DNA from: Calothrix membranacea FACHB-236
Lineage (GTDB): Bacteria; Cyanobacteriota; Cyanobacteriia; Cyanobacteriales; Nostocaceae
Reading direction: 5' to 3'
Assembly: GCF_014696315.1 (NCBI RefSeq)
Contig: NZ_JACJPX010000005.1
Coordinates: 1 to 64,000, forward strand
Length of the DNA: 64,000 nucleotides
The notes beneath the pieces are model-generated. The model ran no database searches. It worked only from the letters and a program-made list of their open reading frames with translations, and was not told the origin of the DNA. Positions 19,511 to 39,141 of the stretch are shown one piece after another (the first letter of the stretch is position 1; the number at the start of each line of letters is the position of its first letter). Made by a program: the position numbers and the translations under genes.

Positions 19511-21157
19511 TTAAATTTTCATGCTTGGCACATCTTGTTCTTCACCTTGATATTCCGGAAGATCATTAGGTGCGCCACAAGCGGAAACCTCAATGTCGTT
19601 AGGTGCGCCACAAGCGGAAATATTGCCTGTAAAATCAACATCTGCTTTTAATTCAGGATGTTGTTGCTTGCGTTCAGCAATTTGTTCAGGAGTGAGAATC
19701 TTGGACTCGTCAAAACCTAACTCGATTTCTGTATGTAGTCCTTTATATTTCACCCGCTTCAGGTTGTAGAAGCGTTTGTTGAGAGTAGTTTGAGCAAAAG
19801 CCTTTAAGCAACCTAAAAGATATTTCCGCTTAAAGGGATCTTTTACAAACCAATACTCTATAGTTTTACGCATATAGAACCGAGCATAGTTCCGCAACAC
19901 GCCTTTGAGAACCTCTTCCCGTTCCATTGCGTTTGGCTTCATGATGGGCGTAACAAAGTTATATTGCGAATAATCTCGCACTTCAACGCGATCGCCTAAT
20001 TCTTGGAATAATTCGGAAAATGGCCAAGGGGTAAACATATTCCAGTTCACCATGTCTGGTTTCCAATCCAGTGCCATGTGATAGGTTTGTTCAATTGTTT
20101 CTGGGGTTTCGTTCTCTAAACCCATAATGAATTGCGCTTCGGCAACCATACCATTTTGTTTTAACAGTTGGATTGCCCGCTTATTTTGTTCAATTGTCGT
20201 TTCTTTGCGGAACAAATTCAACTTTAACTGAGCGGCTGCTTCTGTTCCTAAAGACACGTGAACTAATCCAGCTTTGCGATACAGGGGTAATTCGTTTTCG
20301 TCGCGCAAAATATCTGTGACTCGCGTATTAATTCCCCAATACACGCCCAAATTACGCTCGATTAATTCGTTACATAGCGCAATAAATTTGGGTTTGTTGA
20401 TTGTTGGTTCTTCGTCCGCCAAAATGAAAAAGCCTACCTTGTGCTTTTTCACCAAAATTTCAATTTCATCAACAAAGCGCTTGGGAGAACCAGAACGGTA
20501 TTTGCGCCAGAATTTCCACTGGGAGCAAAAACGGCAAGTAAATGGACATCCTCTAGCATAGTTGGGTACAGCTACCCGCACGTTGAGAGGAGTGTAAATA
20601 TATTTCTTCCAATCTAAAAGATCCCAATCTGGGGTGAGGGTATCTAAATCAGCAATTGGGGGATGGGCTGGTGTAGCGATTACTTGACCATCTTCTAAAA
20701 AGGCAATACCTAAAATATTACGGCGATCGCTCACATCTGTACCATTGGCGATCGCACGTAGTAAATTAACTGTAATCTCTTCACCTTCACCACGGATAAT
20801 ATAATCTACCCAAGGTGCTTCGGTAAGAACTTCAGTATACATATAGGTAGGGTGAACCCCGCCCATAATTGTTTTTGCATTGGGGCAAACTTCTTTAACA
20901 ATTTTTAGGGTGATTTGCGATTGATAAATCATCGGCGTGATTGCCGTTGCTAGTACCACATCCGGCTGATATTTAGCGATAATTTCTGCTAAGACATCAT
21001 CCGGAATATAGTCTGTCATCGCATCAACAAAGCGGATATCGGTAAAGCCAGCTTGTTTTAATGCTCCACCAACATAAGGAACCCAACTCGGTGGCCAATT
21101 ACCAGCAATTTCCGCACCACCAGAATGATAGTTGGGCTGAATCATCATGATACGCAT
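19511..21157 (-). CDS. BchE-like B12-binding radical SAM protein (anaerobic Mg-protoporphyrin IX monomethyl ester cyclase family)
   Basis: 548 residues from the ATG at 21157, which has AGGAAG upstream; a TTG at 21187 is less likely. Order: N-terminal cobalamin-binding fold (about 1-150: MIQPNYHSGGAEIAGNWPPSWVPYVGGAL..., GGVHPTYMYTE), then radical SAM with C204-x3-C208-x2-C211 (RGCPFTCRFC). BchE makes the chlorophyll isocyclic ring without oxygen; cyanobacterial homologues are not all proven cyclases. Its place behind heme oxygenase and hemN supports a low-oxygen tetrapyrrole role. The C terminus has a tandem 11-residue repeat (SACGAPND). Confidence 0.82.
   Translation of the reverse strand: MRIMMIQPNYHSGGAEIAGNWPPSWVPYVGGALKQAGFTDIRFVDAMTDYIPDDVLAEIIAKYQPDVVLATAITPMIYQSQITLKIVKEVCPNAKTIMGGVHPTYMYTEVLTEAPWVDYIIRGEGEEITVNLLRAIANGTDVSDRRNILGIAFLEDGQVIATPAHPPIADLDTLTPDWDLLDWKKYIYTPLNVRVAVPNYARGCPFTCRFCSQWKFWRKYRSGSPKRFVDEIEILVKKHKVGFFILADEEPTINKPKFIALCNELIERNLGVYWGINTRVTDILRDENELPLYRKAGLVHVSLGTEAAAQLKLNLFRKETTIEQNKRAIQLLKQNGMVAEAQFIMGLENETPETIEQTYHMALDWKPDMVNWNMFTPWPFSELFQELGDRVEVRDYSQYNFVTPIMKPNAMEREEVLKGVLRNYARFYMRKTIEYWFVKDPFKRKYLLGCLKAFAQTTLNKRFYNLKRVKYKGLHTEIELGFDESKILTPEQIAERKQQHPELKADVDFTGNISACGAPNDIEVSACGAPNDLPEYQGEEQDVPSMKI
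19565..19620 (-). repeat. 33-bp direct repeat inside the bchE-like gene
   Basis: TTAGGTGCGCCACAAGCGGA occurs at about 19566-19585 and again at 19599-19618, period 33 bp, in frame. It duplicates SACGAPND near the C terminus. Confidence 0.8.
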
Positions 21158-32621: not shown

Positions 32622-32963
32622 ATGAGTGACACCAGTGTTAAAAAAGTAGACTCAACTCATTCCCCTAAGGGTAAACTCGGCCAAAAATATCTTGCATCTG
32701 GCAAGGCTGTGGCTATGCGGATTTGGGAAAACGAACAACCCAGTGAAGGAAAACCATCAGCATCCCGCGACTATGAAACAGTTGGTTATGTAATTAGCGG
32801 TCGTGCCGAGTTACATATTGAAGGGCAAACAATTTTATTAGAACCAGGGAATTCTTGGGTGGTTCCTAAAGGTTCAAGCCATACTTACAAAATTTTAGAA
32901 CCATTCACCGCAGTGGAAGCGACAAGCCCACCTGCTCAAGTTCATGGGCGGGATGAGGAATAG
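32622..32963 (+). CDS. Single-domain cupin
   Basis: 113 residues. Cupin motif 1 region RDYETVGYVISGRAELHIEGQTILLEPGNSWVVPKGSSHTYKI covers most of the barrel; motif 2 is PKGSSHTYKIL. Metal-binding residues are only partly conserved: one late His and a Glu, with Tyr where motif 1 His would be. It may be a non-enzymatic or sugar-binding cupin. 16 bp after the dehydrogenase with AAGGAAA upstream, so probably co-transcribed and last in the cassette. Confidence 0.82.
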   Translation: MSDTSVKKVDSTHSPKGKLGQKYLASGKAVAMRIWENEQPSEGKPSASRDYETVGYVISGRAELHIEGQTILLEPGNSWVVPKGSSHTYKILEPFTAVEATSPPAQVHGRDEE

Positions 32964-33674
32964 GGATGGGGGATTGGGGACTGGGTATTTGGAAATAGTA
33001 TTTTCACTCAGAACTCAGCACTCAGAACTGTACTCTACCTTCTTTGATAAAAATTTAACCTCAGATCAACACAGATTCTCACCGATAAATTAACTAGATT
33101 TATCGGTGTTTTTTTTATTAGGATTAATGATGCGATCGCCTAAAATCTTCTGACAATATTCTCTTAAAATTAAATACTTAAAACAACAACACCCAAAATC
33201 TTACTAACTTAGTTATTTCCTCTCTTTTCTCAGAAATATCTAGGGTTGTACCGATTTAACTCACGCTCACCGTGATATTCTAAAAATCAGTTACATAGCC
33301 CTCTTTTAGACTAATTTGAGGAAATGTAAGCGTTCGATTTGGGTGTTGCCGTCCGTTGACGAGACAGATATTTAAACAGTGGTTTTACCTCTTTCTTTGT
33401 TTAACTGTTGGATCTGCCAGGGAAGCTTGTTTGGCTTCAATTAATAAGTTATCACTCTTAACTGAAGTAAATTGCTATTGCAACTAATGTTTACTTGTAT
33501 AGAAGTTTTGACTTGCATTATGTAAAGTAATTTGAATTAGAAGCCAGCCTTTCTTAAGGACTTACCTAACTCCAAAATTTTTTAAACATTGAGCAATTTT
33601 GGTAAATTTGAGCGAATTCAAATCTTGGAGAATAACTCACTGTACTAACTGCATTGTCAAGGCTCAAACCCTGA
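32964..33674. other. 711-bp spacer with terminator
   Basis: Contains an STRR (about 32966-32988), the CTCAGAACTCAGCACTC repeat motif, and the terminator at 33080. The rest is AT-rich with no gene seen. Confidence 0.45.
33080..33116 (+). terminator. Strong rho-independent terminator
   Basis: Perfect 11-bp stem CACCGATAAAT (33080-33090) with ATTTATCGGTG (33098-33108), 7-base loop, then eight T. The best terminator in the window; it closes the cassette that ends with the cupin gene. Confidence 0.9.
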
Positions 33675-33932
33675 TTATTTAGCGGTAAACTCGCTAATAT
33701 GCAGTACCACTTCGCCATGATCTGGAATCCAAGCTAGCCACTCGTGTTTAGAAACCGGACACAATAACAGTGCTTCATCAAAACTGTATGGATTAGGAAG
33801 CTGTAACAGCTTTACCCAGCGAGATACGGTAAACTGCTGTGACTGGTCTGGTACACAAGGTTTACTGATACAATTCAAATTCTGTCTTTTGAGTTGCATT
33901 GCAAAATCCGGTCTATCAAAATCTAGTTTCAT
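33675..33932 (-). CDS. Small conserved hypothetical protein
   Basis: 85 residues. C-terminal half FTVSRWVKLLQLPNPYSFDEALLLCPVSKHEWLAWIPDHGEVVLHISEF resembles short cyanobacterial proteins I have seen without a named function. No signal peptide or membrane helix. ATG at 33932. An exact GTA-N8-TAC motif lies only 29 bp upstream of its start, too close for NtcA activation but possible for repression. Confidence 0.65.
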   Translation of the reverse strand: MKLDFDRPDFAMQLKRQNLNCISKPCVPDQSQQFTVSRWVKLLQLPNPYSFDEALLLCPVSKHEWLAWIPDHGEVVLHISEFTAK

Positions 33933-33961
33933 GGCTAATGGGTTAGCAGTAAAATAATTCT

Positions 33962-34005
33962 GTATCTAAGAATACAAAATTAATATTACTTCTGAAAAGT
34001 AAACT
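33962..34005 (+). promoter_or_regulatory. NtcA-type promoter candidate 1 (distal)
   Basis: GTA (33962-33964), N8, TAC (33973-33975), then 24 bases to TAAACT (34000-34005). It reads toward devB, about 1.4 kb away. It could equally serve or repress the divergent gene at 33932. Confidence 0.45.
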
Positions 34006-34192
34006 TCTTATAACTTTACGTTGTATTAATGTGAGTTTGTGCTGCTGTTGCAAGTGCTATAGGAGTTTGAGACATCGATTTTACGCAAGCGATCGCATCT
34101 CGTCTCCTCCCACCACCGCAAATGCGACGATTGCATTCAATAACTCAAGTATGGTTCGGTTAAGAATTTTTCGTCATGATTTTGGGGTTGTG

Positions 34193-34214
34193 GAGACGCG
34201 ATAAATCACGTCTC
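34193..34214. repeat. Copy of the dispersed GAGACGCGATT palindrome
   Basis: GAGACGCGATAA at 34193 with ATCACGTCTC, 22 bp, two mismatches in the dyad relative to the perfect copy at 31280, followed by TACA as in other Nostoc copies. Confidence 0.7.
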
Positions 34215-34344
34215 TACAGGATTTAAACGTCAATCGATTTGTATTATGGGAACCTTATTGCTCAATAACTAACTTCTTTTAAGATGTGGTGCTTTCTTAT
34301 TTCTCCTCTGCTTTTCCCAGTCCCCATTCTCCATCGCCTCATCT

Positions 34345-34386
34345 GTAGGTTCTGTTACGTTTTCCGCCAAGTTATAAAGGTAGAAT
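34345..34386 (+). promoter_or_regulatory. NtcA-type promoter candidate 2 upstream of devBCA
   Basis: GTA (34345-34347), N8, TAC (34356-34358), exactly 22 bases, then TAGAAT (34381-34386) matching TA-N3-T. This is the textbook NtcA-activated promoter layout. Predicted start near 34393, about 1,015 bp before the devB ATG. Confidence 0.7.
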
Positions 34387-34478
34387 TCATTTAACCAAAG
34401 TTTGATGGAGTAAAAAACAGCAGCAGAGAGAACAGCTAAGCCTTTGAAATAGATATCAAAGAGAAGTTAGTTGTCTTG

Positions 34479-34521
34479 GTAAAGATAGCTACAAAATCTG
34501 CTCCATAGTTGACTATAAACT
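34479..34521 (+). promoter_or_regulatory. NtcA-type promoter candidate 3 upstream of devBCA
   Basis: GTA (34479-34481), N8, TAC (34490-34492), 23 bases, then TAAACT (34516-34521). Predicted start near 34528, about 880 bp before devB. Confidence 0.65.
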
Positions 34522-35407
34522 TAAGGAAAATGCAATGTTAGGAACCCCTATTTTGATATAGCAGTTCTGATTCATGCTGGAAATCTTCTGCAAGGTTAAT
34601 CAACTAGCTAGAAAAGTTTAGATCACATAAATCTCGATTGTTCATGAAAGGTAAGGTAAATTATTGGCTGAATTCAATTACGTTATATCTATCAAAATCA
34701 TGCCAGTAATTTTGCCACTTTAGTGAATTCATACTTTAGAACTATCAAACTTCACAGTATCAACTCCAATGGCGGCGTAGAAGTCGCTGATTCTAAATTC
34801 AAAATTCGACAACATTTTATTCCAGGCTTGTGCGCTGTTTAGTAAACACAGAGCTATCATTTATCAGTAAATAGACTAAATTACTGAATGAAAAGCTGGC
34901 TGGTTACTAAAAACCCACTTTAATTAGTTGTCTACCTCATTAATTTTGTTGGTTAATTTTCACACTTCAGAATTTTAGTTAGTGCTGAAGAGTAAAAATT
35001 TTAACCACCATAATTCATCTGACCAAATATTGTACTTTATTACATTCTTTTTGATGAGTTCATCGTTAGTACTTACCTGCTGACAACTTCAAAGCTAAAG
35101 TCCTGACCATCAAGTTATTCAGCCATCAAAATTAATGTCATAAAGCACTAATTTAATTGTGCGTCATACCAATTCTCTAAAATTCGGCATCACATATAGC
35201 AATCCTCAATGATTTGTGAAATCTGATCTGAAGGGTTGTTGGCTGTTAACCTTTGACAGTCAACACTCAACAGCCAAAAACGATATTTTTCACAACTGAA
35301 ATAGGATGGCTATAGATACAATGTGAATTTTTTAATTATGAATTACGAATTGGTATAACTCGCTTTTCACTTCTATCAGCAAAATTCAGATAAACGGGCA
35401 ATATATC

Positions 35408-36826
35408 ATGTCAAGGGTGACTGAGAAGCCAAAGTTAAAGGAACAGCCACTTGATCAACCTAAAATTTTATGGAGCATAGCTGTAGCCCTACCCATAGTA
35501 ATTGCTGCCGGTGTACTGGGTACAGCTAAGGTTGAGCAGTTGAGAAAGCTAGCTTCATCCGTACCCATTAGGCCAATGGTCAATACTGTTACTGCTGTGG
35601 GTCATATTGAACCACGGGGAGAAGTAATTAATTTATCTGCACCGATGGGGGGAATGCAAGCTTCGTCGCGAGTACAAAAACTGCTGATTAAAGAAGGCGA
35701 CAAAGTCAAACAAGGTCAAGTACTGGCGGTTTTGGATAATCACGATACCCAACTAGCTGCATTAGAAGAAGCAAAAGCAAAATTGCAAGAATCTCGTGCT
35801 AATTTAGCGCAAGTTAGAGCCGGTTCACCTAGAGATATTCAAGCCCAAAATTCTGTAATTGCTCGTTTAGAAGCTCAGTTACGTGGGGAAAGGGATGCAC
35901 AGCAAGCAACGATCACGCGCATTGCAGCTCAGTTAAGTGGCGAGAAAGTCGCGCAACAAGCAATGGTTAACCGTTTAGAAGCTGAGTTGAGTGGACAAAA
36001 AGATACTTTAAGAGCCACACTCACACGTATTCAAGCTGAACAACGGAATGCTCAAGTTGATGCTCAACGCTATGATATGTTGTATAAAGAAGGTGCGATT
36101 TCCCAGCAAGAGCGAGATAGAAGACGCTTGAGCGCCATTACTAGCAATCAGCAGGTGGTGGAAAGCCAAGCAAGCCTCAGACAGGCGATCGCCACAATCA
36201 AACAACAAATTGCAGAAGCTAGAGCGAATCAAGTCAAAACTTTATCGACTTTGCAACAACAGCTGGTGGAAGCTAAAGTTAACCGCGATAAAACCGTGGC
36301 TACTTTGCAAAGACAAATTGACGAAGAACGAGCCAAACTCAACCGATTGATCGAAGTCCGTCCGACTGATGTACAAATGGCGCAGGCTCAAGTGAGTAAT
36401 GCGATCGCAATGGTAAGAAAAGCCGAAGCAGAACTGAAATTGAGCTATGTGAGAGCACCCATTGATGGTGAAATTTTAAAAGTTCACACCAAATCGGGAG
36501 AAGCCATCACTCAAATGGGAATTGCTGAACTTGGACAAACTGATCAAATGTTTGTCATCGCTGAAGTATCAGAAGACAGTATTGGTAGAGTGCGTCTTGG
36601 CCAAACTGCAACTATATCTAGTGATAACGGGGCCTTTGCTGGCGAACTTAAGGGAACCGTCGCTGAAATTGGCAGAAAGATTGGTAAAAAAGATGTGTTA
36701 AATACAGATCCAGCAGCTGATGTAGATGCCAGAGTTGTAGAAGTGAAAATTGCCCTCTCTCCAGAAGATAGTACAAAAGTGGCAGGTTTAACCAACGCTA
36801 AGGTGGTTGTAGAAATTAACAATTAA
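35408..36826 (+). CDS. devB: DevB-type membrane fusion protein (HlyD family) of the heterocyst glycolipid exporter
   Basis: 472 residues. One N-terminal membrane helix (about 22-42), then a biotinyl-lipoyl-like half-motif (VTAVGHIEPRGEVINLSAPMGG), a long periplasmic coiled coil (about 115-320, Gln/Arg-rich) and the second half (LSYVRAPIDGEILKVHTKSGEAI). It is followed by devC and devA homologues. In Anabaena DevB joins the inner-membrane ABC pump to TolC (HgdD) to export heterocyst glycolipids. Several devBCA paralogues exist per genome, but the NtcA-type promoters upstream favour the heterocyst operon. Confidence 0.85.
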   Translation: MSRVTEKPKLKEQPLDQPKILWSIAVALPIVIAAGVLGTAKVEQLRKLASSVPIRPMVNTVTAVGHIEPRGEVINLSAPMGGMQASSRVQKLLIKEGDKVKQGQVLAVLDNHDTQLAALEEAKAKLQESRANLAQVRAGSPRDIQAQNSVIARLEAQLRGERDAQQATITRIAAQLSGEKVAQQAMVNRLEAELSGQKDTLRATLTRIQAEQRNAQVDAQRYDMLYKEGAISQQERDRRRLSAITSNQQVVESQASLRQAIATIKQQIAEARANQVKTLSTLQQQLVEAKVNRDKTVATLQRQIDEERAKLNRLIEVRPTDVQMAQAQVSNAIAMVRKAEAELKLSYVRAPIDGEILKVHTKSGEAITQMGIAELGQTDQMFVIAEVSEDSIGRVRLGQTATISSDNGAFAGELKGTVAEIGRKIGKKDVLNTDPAADVDARVVEVKIALSPEDSTKVAGLTNAKVVVEINN

Positions 36827-37043: not shown

Positions 37044-38240
37044 ATGATTGCTGAAAGAATTGCTAACTTCTTATCTACCTATTTAATGAATAAAAAAATC
37101 CCTTTGTCATGGCTACAATTAACCAGGGAAAAAACACGTTTAGCTGTGGCTTTGGCAGGGATTGGCTTTGCTGATATTTTAATGTTTATGCAACTTGGTT
37201 TCCGAGATGCTTTGTATTATAGTAACGTGCGTTTACATAGCAGCTTGGAAGGCGACATTATTTTAATTAACAGTCAATCTAATGCTGTGTTGTCGATGAA
37301 GAGTTTTTCACAAAGGCGTTTATATAAAGCTTTAGATTTACCAGCAGTTCAATCAGTACATCCTATATATTTAGATTACACAGCCTGGAGAAATCCTGAG
37401 ACAGGTCGCCCTCGGAGTATTCTGATATTTGGTTTTAACCCGGAAGTTAATATTTTTAACTTACCAGGAATGGTAGAAAATTTAGATAAACTCAAACTTC
37501 CTGATGTCGTTTTATATGACCGTTCTTCTCGGGTAGAGTACGGGCCAATTGCTGCTGATTTTGAACAAGGTAAAAATGTCACAGCAGAAGTTAGAAGACG
37601 GCGGATTAAAGTAGTAGGATTATTTACTTTAGGTGCATCCTTCGGTGCTGATGGTAATTTAATTACTAGTGATGTTAACTTTTTGCGAATATTTAATAAT
37701 CGCCAGCGCGGTTTAATCGATATTGGTGTAATCAAGCTCAAGCCTGGTGCAGATGCGAACGCAGTTACTCAGGAATTAAGGAATTATTTACCTCAAGATG
37801 TTAATGTTTTAACCAAGCAGGAATTTATTGACTTTGAGCGTAATTACTGGGCAAGTAGTACTGCGATTGGTTTTATTTTTACTTTAGGGACAATTATGGG
37901 ATTTATTGTGGGAACTGTAATTGTTTACCAAATTCTTTATACTGAAGTTGCGGATCACTTGGCTGAGTACGCAACTTTAAAAGCAATAGGTTATACCCAA
38001 AACTATTTATTAACTGTTATTCTGCAAGAAGCTTTCTTATTAGCTGTGATTGGTTATATACCTGGATTTGCCTTTGCATTATTTATGTACTCTACTGCTA
38101 GAAACGCTACATTGCTACCAGTTTTTATGAGCATTGATCGTGCTATTTTAGTACTATTTTTAACGATAGTAATGTGCTTTGTTTCTGGTGCGATCGCAGT
38201 GCGTAAGTTACGTTCAGCCGACCCTGCTGATATCTTTTAA
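37044..38240 (+). CDS. devC: DevC-type ABC transporter permease (FtsX-like)
   Basis: 398 residues. Four membrane helices in MacB/FtsX arrangement: one near 33-52, and three C-terminal (about 275-298, 325-345, 362-385), with a large extracytoplasmic domain between (about 65-260). Characteristic ends: LSWLQLTREKTRLAVALAGIGFADILMFMQLGFRDALY and AVRKLRSADPADIF. It is the DevC family, forming the channel with DevA and DevB. The 217-bp gap from devB is AT-rich with no clear promoter. Confidence 0.88.
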   Translation: MIAERIANFLSTYLMNKKIPLSWLQLTREKTRLAVALAGIGFADILMFMQLGFRDALYYSNVRLHSSLEGDIILINSQSNAVLSMKSFSQRRLYKALDLPAVQSVHPIYLDYTAWRNPETGRPRSILIFGFNPEVNIFNLPGMVENLDKLKLPDVVLYDRSSRVEYGPIAADFEQGKNVTAEVRRRRIKVVGLFTLGASFGADGNLITSDVNFLRIFNNRQRGLIDIGVIKLKPGADANAVTQELRNYLPQDVNVLTKQEFIDFERNYWASSTAIGFIFTLGTIMGFIVGTVIVYQILYTEVADHLAEYATLKAIGYTQNYLLTVILQEAFLLAVIGYIPGFAFALFMYSTARNATLLPVFMSIDRAILVLFLTIVMCFVSGAIAVRKLRSADPADIF

Positions 38241-38403: not shown

Positions 38404-39141
38404 ATGATGAGACAAGAACCTGTAATTGCTATTAAAAATATCAATCATTATTATGGTAGAGGCGCACTCAAAAGACAGATTTTATTTGACATTAATCTAG
38501 AAATTTTTGCTGGCGAAATTGTCATTATGACCGGGCCATCAGGTTCAGGTAAAACTACATTACTTAGCTTGATTGGGGGATTACGGTCTGTACAAGAGGG
38601 TAGCCTAAAATTTCTAGGCGAAGAATTACTAGGTGCCAGCCAAAATCAGTTAGTGCAAGTCCGCAGGAAAATAGGTTATATTTTCCAAGCTCATAATTTG
38701 CTAGGATTTTTAACCGCCAGACAAAATGTACAAATGGCGGTAGAGCTAAATGACGCAGTTGCCCAAAGCGAAGCGATTGCTAAATCAGAAGCAATGTTAG
38801 CAGCCGTTGGGTTACAAGAGAGAATTAATTACTATCCAGATAATCTTTCTGGTGGTCAAAAACAAAGAATTGCGATCGCTCGGGCTTTGGTAAATCACCC
38901 TCCTCTCGTACTAGCCGACGAACCAACAGCAGCTTTAGACAAACAATCCGGTCGAGATGTTGTAGAAATCATGCAACGTCTTGCCAAAGACCAAGGAACG
39001 TCTATTTTGCTGGTAACACATGACAACCGCATTTTAGATATAGCCGATCGCATTGTGGAAATGGAAGATGGGCTTTTAACTCGCGATTCTCAAAGTGTAG
39101 TCAGCCATTACGATTCTGGAGCGAGAAATCATAACTCATAA
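38404..39141 (+). CDS. devA: DevA-type ABC transporter ATP-binding protein
   Basis: 245 residues. Walker A GPSGSGKT (44-51), signature LSGGQ (148-152), Walker B LVLADEP (168-174), D-loop AALD and switch His in LVTHDNR. LolD/MacB-type ATPase that drives the DevBC exporter. Normal DevA length and gene order (B-C-A). The 163-bp gap from devC is AT-rich. Confidence 0.9.
   Translation: MMRQEPVIAIKNINHYYGRGALKRQILFDINLEIFAGEIVIMTGPSGSGKTTLLSLIGGLRSVQEGSLKFLGEELLGASQNQLVQVRRKIGYIFQAHNLLGFLTARQNVQMAVELNDAVAQSEAIAKSEAMLAAVGLQERINYYPDNLSGGQKQRIAIARALVNHPPLVLADEPTAALDKQSGRDVVEIMQRLAKDQGTSILLVTHDNRILDIADRIVEMEDGLLTRDSQSVVSHYDSGARNHNS

Follow-up and report, generated by a model that had tools for sequence, protein, structure and literature searches.

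A conserved NtcA-type devBCA promoter and the NtcA-type box of a probable divergent nirP1 gene share one gap lacking pcyA in Calothrix membranacea

The region upstream of devBCA in Calothrix membranacea FACHB-236 is most probably (probability about 0.87) a divergent gap in which one NtcA-type site (site 2) activates devBCA, another (site 1) represses nirP1 on the opposite strand, a third (site 3) is a chance match, and pcyA is missing. The motifs, their conservation, the identities of the genes by sequence and the absence of pcyA were observed directly; "the window" is the whole stretch of 64,000 nt that was analyzed (contig NZ_JACJPX010000005.1, positions 1 to 64,000 of the forward strand; assembly GCF_014696315.1). 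NtcA binding, activation at site 2 and repression at site 1 are predicted from the literature, and the start points from spacing. After nitrogen step-down, NtcA with 2-oxoglutarate would act at site 2 together with the polymerase at TAGAAT, 22 bases on, and this activation would start the devBCA leader of about 1 kb. For nirP1, which is read from the opposite strand, the start point would lie under site 1, and NtcA bound there would repress the gene. Two promoters of opposite senses, both of known kinds, would have been brought into one gap by the missing pcyA. The features are listed in Table 1.

Table 1. Features of the nirP1-devBCA region in window coordinates
Feature	Position	Strand	Remarks
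nirP1 homologue (probable), 85 aa, divergent from devBCA	33675..33932	-	one Cys and three Trp invariant; 57% identical to L123 protein
Stretch between nirP1 box and start codon, with inverted repeat GCTAA-CCCA-TTAGC in the window	33933..33961	-	7-bp form in 33 selected relatives
Site 1, predicted repressor position (NtcA-type box in the nirP1 promoter)	33962..33975	-	box in 49/51 loci
Usual pcyA position, pcyA absent here	33976..34344	.	pcyA upstream of devB in 73/80 relatives
Site 2, conserved NtcA-type devBCA promoter, GTAGGTTCTGTTAC-N22-TAGAAT	34345..34386	+	77/80 relatives
devBCA leader	34393..35407	+	start near 34393 predicted from spacing
Site 3, GTAAAGATAGCTAC, probable chance match private to window	34479..34492	+	exact in 1/78 sequences
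devB	35408..36826	+	TIGR02971, 323.8 bits (cut-off 129)
devC	37044..38240	+	TIGR01185, 709.6 bits (cut-off 290.35)
devA	38404..39141	+	TIGR02982, 380.1 bits (cut-off 295.8)

The operon was recognized by the DevB, DevC and DevA families, which follow one another in this order, each above its curated cut-off. A preliminary description of this DNA had pointed to three exact GTA-N8-TAC motifs within 531 bp, and a motif scan indeed found all three, at 33962, 34345 and 34479 (sites 1, 2 and 3). TA-N3-T follows them on the plus strand at 24, 22 and 23 bases, respectively, as had been claimed. Well under one such motif had been expected by chance; a first-order model gave 0.27 for the 1475-bp intergenic region. 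In 4000 first-order simulations of this region, three or more motifs arose in 0.175%, and three or more motifs all with TAN3T at 22 to 24 bases arose in none; thus, the cluster, taken alone, is unusual. These simulations, and the fit of all three sites to GTAN8TAC plus TAN3T at 22 to 24 bases, count in favor of the tandem NtcA array for staged induction of devBCA that had been proposed. On the other hand, 23 GTAN8TAC sites were found in the whole window versus 11.1 expected, and 23 was reached in none of 100 shuffles. When 23 sites were placed randomly in the window, three fell within 517 bases somewhere in 25% of the simulations; the chance rate of TAN3T at 22 to 24 bases, also by simulation, is about 8.5% per site. 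The motif is symmetric, and therefore its direction can be read only from the neighboring sequence.

Site 2 was compared with 80 devB loci from other genomes, the best 80 of 188 confirmed stretches obtained in one scan of genome contigs. GTAN8TAC with TAN3T at 22 bases was present in the window and in 77 of the 80 relatives; the three without it were L062 and L081, for which fewer than 200 bases upstream were covered, and L090. An alignment of 77 sequences, window included, has the box core and TA-N3-T fixed through the selection of the sequences, and beyond this picked core, the G, A and A of TAGAAT as well as the next T were invariant. The distance from site 2 to the devB ATG was 389 to 1464 bases (78 sequences). 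The NtcA-type promoter with a long leader that had been proposed for devBCA therefore stands. In class II NtcA promoters, the site and the -10 box are about 22 bases apart, and the start point lies about 41.5 bases from the center of the site. The devBCA promoter of Anabaena is reportedly NtcA dependent (the work is that of Fiedler et al. in 2001). It is the same in that heterocyst-forming relatives carry one GTAN8TAC with TAN3T at 22 bases several hundred bases before devB, but it differs from the window in that the leader is about 1 kb here and pcyA is missing upstream. Site 2 is, as judged from its sequence, an ordinary canonical NtcA-type devBCA promoter, at which NtcA binding and activation are predicted. 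GTAN8TAC with a TAN3T -10 box is the pattern given for NtcA-activated promoters (PMC3898017). Similarly, the text on hgdB, a devB homologue of Anabaena sp. PCC 7120, places one GTAN8TAC at -629, which provides the devB gene group with a precedent for a single site far from the gene; hgdB is, however, another gene, and its site was predicted in silico only (PMC6161253).

Site 1 had been taken for a promoter of devBCA as well, but its conservation in relatives assigns it to a small gene that diverges from devBCA. Of 81 loci, the window among them, 51 have this gene upstream of devB, and it was not found in the other 30 of the 80 relatives in the DNA covered at the devB locus. A GTAN8TAC box no more than 70 bases from the start codon was present in 49 of these 51 loci (window included); the box is lacking in L018, which has a partial match, and in L040, which has a one-base change. 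The distance from this box to the start of the small gene was 29 to 50 bases (standard deviation 6.3, n = 49), and that from box 1 to box 2 was 135 to 1732 bases (standard deviation 306, n = 49). A profile search detected the small gene in 192 of 291 genomes of an order draw (E up to 0.001) and in 55 of 292 genomes of a phylum draw (E up to 0.01); some genomes are in both draws. Order-wide loci were taken for the 30 best-matching genomes only, and they include at least 3 from the devB comparison, namely, the window (L092), L093 and L095. The box lay 43 to 204 bases before the chosen start in 29 of these 30 loci (L097 was the one without), and devB was not seen in any of the 30 in the roughly 1.5 kb covered on each side. 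Since the box keeps its 29 to 50 bases to the small gene and recurs in the order-wide loci, site 1 belongs to the small gene. The box is 28 to 29 bases from the ATG in the window, in L011 to L016 and in L082, versus about 46 in most others, and therefore the exact start of the gene is uncertain. TAN3T on the devB side, at 22 to 24 bases after site 1, was found in only 3 of 49 loci (the window, L011 and L082), and the claim that all three motifs are oriented toward devB was not confirmed.

The divergent gene of 85 aa is very probably nirP1, the gene of a nitrite reductase regulator. In Synechocystis, NirP1 binds this enzyme and has been proposed as its inhibitor; according to PMC10907346, the proteins are mostly 76 to 86 aa long, the last 50 or so aa are conserved, and one Cys and three Trp are invariant in 485 homologues. 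The protein in the window matches this description, with its 85 aa and with a Cys and three Trp that do not vary in the family (W38, C57, W64 and W67, numbered without the first Met, were invariant in 16 sequences), and a search of its own genome at E up to 1 gave a single match. Furthermore, it is 57% identical over 49 aa to an 81-aa protein of locus L123, which has W36, W62 and W65 as well as C27, C55 and C81. The L123 gene and a chloride-channel gene lie tail to tail; at 1742 to 1759, 38 bases before the box of the L123 gene, a tandem repeat of the TTTGT(T/C)AA type is found, with one mismatch. If this repeat is centered at the published -51.5, the start point is at about 1802, inside the box at 1798 to 1811. 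In length, residues, chloride-channel neighbor and promoter repeat, the L123 protein fits the published Synechocystis NirP1; it was matched by these features and not by a named record. In Synechocystis, the transcription unit of nirP1 and a chloride-channel gene overlap, and a tandem TTTGT(T/C)AA element, present in 135 homologues (456 promoters analyzed), drives nirP1 (PMC10907346). An NtcA motif over the start point is kept in 435 of 456 homologues, and NtcA repressed nirP1 in a reporter assay, in which some repression remained without the motif (PMC10907346). The gene in the window resembles Synechocystis nirP1 in its small product, which has the one Cys and the three Trp, and in having an NtcA-type box just before it, but it differs in that it faces devBCA and in that the tandem octamer was not found near it with up to 3 mismatches. 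An exact tandem was found in none of 139 loci, and since the octamer is missing from most of the published homologues, it does not define the family. That the gene encodes another cyanobacterial small protein with an NtcA box of its own is very improbable. No Pfam or NCBIfam family names it, the N-terminal half of the protein is poorly conserved, and the Synechocystis repeat is not near it, but the size, the one Cys and three Trp at the reported spacing and the L123 match all argue for NirP1.

In most relatives, sites 1 and 2 are separated by a gene. A 245-aa gene, pcyA, lies upstream of devB in 73 of the 80 relatives, and 46 of the 51 nirP1 loci have a plus-strand pcyA-like open reading frame between nirP1 and devB (176 aa in L018 and 245 to 268 aa in the others); that of L012 is pcyA, phycocyanobilin:ferredoxin oxidoreductase (NF002760). 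No pcyA was found at 20001 to 50000 of the window. The gene is also absent from L011, L014, L015, L071 and L082, relatives with enough sequence; L062 and L081 have too little sequence to judge. Both flanks of the gene can still be recognized: 33934 to 34053 of the window matches the nirP1-pcyA flank of L012 (77.5% over 120 bp), and 34338 to 34411 matches the flank between pcyA and devB (90.5% over 74 bp). To L012 pcyA itself, the gap has a single match at E <0.05, which is 20 bases long and includes GCGATCGC. A PcyA-like gene is found on another contig of the same genome (G000:C90:73706-74419; 65% identical to L012 pcyA), and such genes also occur in the genomes of L011 (66%), L082 (65%) and L015 (two of 68%). 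This suggests that the native pcyA was lost and that a divergent copy is used instead, and this gene loss is the best explanation for the gap that holds sites 1 and 2. The two sites share one gap because pcyA, which usually lies between them, is missing. Among the order-wide loci, pcyA was found within about 1.5 kb of nirP1 in 8 of 30 in all, including L094, L096, L098, L104 and L112, where devB was not seen in the DNA covered.

The joining of the two sites raises the question of whether site 1 acts on both sides, repressing nirP1 and, since the loss of pcyA, adding to devBCA expression or driving read-through into the leader in a small clade. Where nirP1 is present and pcyA is missing, sites 1 and 2 do lie in one gap, and the window, L011 and L082 share TAN3T 24 bases on toward devB. 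However, these three close relatives may share TAN3T by descent alone, and L014 and L015, which are also without pcyA, are without TAN3T at site 1. We therefore regard a dual role of site 1 as improbable and assign it to nirP1.

Site 3 fared differently from the other two sites. An exact motif 90 to 200 bases after the start of site 2 was found in the window only, 1 of 78 sequences, and the two nearest relatives, L011 and L082, have GCAAC where the window reads GCTAC; the DevB of L011 is 99% identical to that of the window. Lack of conservation in close relatives had been named beforehand as evidence against the array, and site 3 shows just this. It is best read as a chance match. With site 3 private to the window, TAN3T rare after site 1, site 1 following nirP1 and not devB, and a pcyA-like frame usually standing between nirP1 and devB, a tandem array of three NtcA promoters for devBCA is hardly credible despite the unusual clustering. 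A false lead, the triple NtcA array, is thereby removed.

In many relatives, the NtcA box is separated from the start codon of nirP1 by a stretch with a 7-bp inverted repeat, ATTAGCC-N10-GGCTAAT; in the window, this repeat is shortened to 5 bp and is not significant alone (P = 0.075). The repeat was counted on 33 of 47 distinct sequences. The 14 shorter or ill-fitting sequences that were left out include the window, L021, L022, L034, L035, L057 and L089, so the count leans toward structure, and kinship among the sequences inflates counts of this kind. In the 33 sequences, 95.2% of the cells pair (as high in 7 of 500 shuffles), three cells at one pair were changed on both sides (7 of 500 shuffles) and the covariation score was reached by 1 of 500 shuffles; the number of doubly changed pairs (263 of 500) and that of additional pair types (174 of 500) were ordinary. 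An RNA hairpin and a DNA operator are indistinguishable from these data.

A wider and rather unlikely scenario would combine these elements: the loss of pcyA would have made two independent NtcA promoters of a small clade into one back-to-back switch, in which site 1 acts on both sides, so that nitrogen starvation turns nirP1, the brake on nitrite reductase, off and devBCA, the heterocyst glycolipid exporter, on, and nirP1 of many relatives would in addition be controlled posttranscriptionally by the 5' hairpin. In the open-licence part of PubMed Central, no paper was found that links nirP1 with devB or pcyA with devB and NtcA. None of the terms synteny, neighbor, devB, UTR, stem-loop and divergent occurs in the main text of the NirP1 paper (PMC10907346). 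In many heterocyst-forming cyanobacteria, the present data place nirP1, a recently described nitrite reductase regulator, beside pcyA and devBCA; they also provide testable predictions for nirP1 in heterocyst formers and describe a natural case in which two promoter regions were joined through the absence of a gene. The genome also carries ntcA, nifH and genes of the nitrite/sulfite reductase family. The ntcA gene lies in the same window at 1765 to 2454 on the minus strand, with two GTAN8TAC motifs upstream, at 2525 and 2710; two NtcA sites are mentioned for the ntcA promoter of Anabaena (PMC3898017).

The leader of devBCA had been suggested to hold RNA control elements as well, but none was detected. 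Rfam gave no match in 32900 to 35450 at E up to 1, and RNAalifold, run on the 5' ends of 14 of the 78 leaders, predicted no pairs, which does not imply the absence of an RNA element. Conservation of the leader, in an alignment of 78 sequences, is found mainly in the first 160 or so bases and in the last 45 or so before the ATG. The latter, directly 5' of devB at 35365 to 35407 of the window, are highly conserved and exceed what a ribosome-binding site needs. Two coding explanations were considered. A short upstream gene could start at a conserved ATGGAG near the start of the leader, which is present in 60 of 78 sequences, but its frame is 2 to 45 residues long (30 in 14 of the 60) and has 2 residues in the window, and therefore no peptide is common to all. 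As for a start of devB further upstream, stops interrupt the frame before the ATG in many relatives, although in the window this frame is open for 22 codons. Finally, 21 of the 78 leaders, apparently those of one clade and including L026 and L029, have a GTAYCGCAYCATAC motif no more than 700 bases after site 2.
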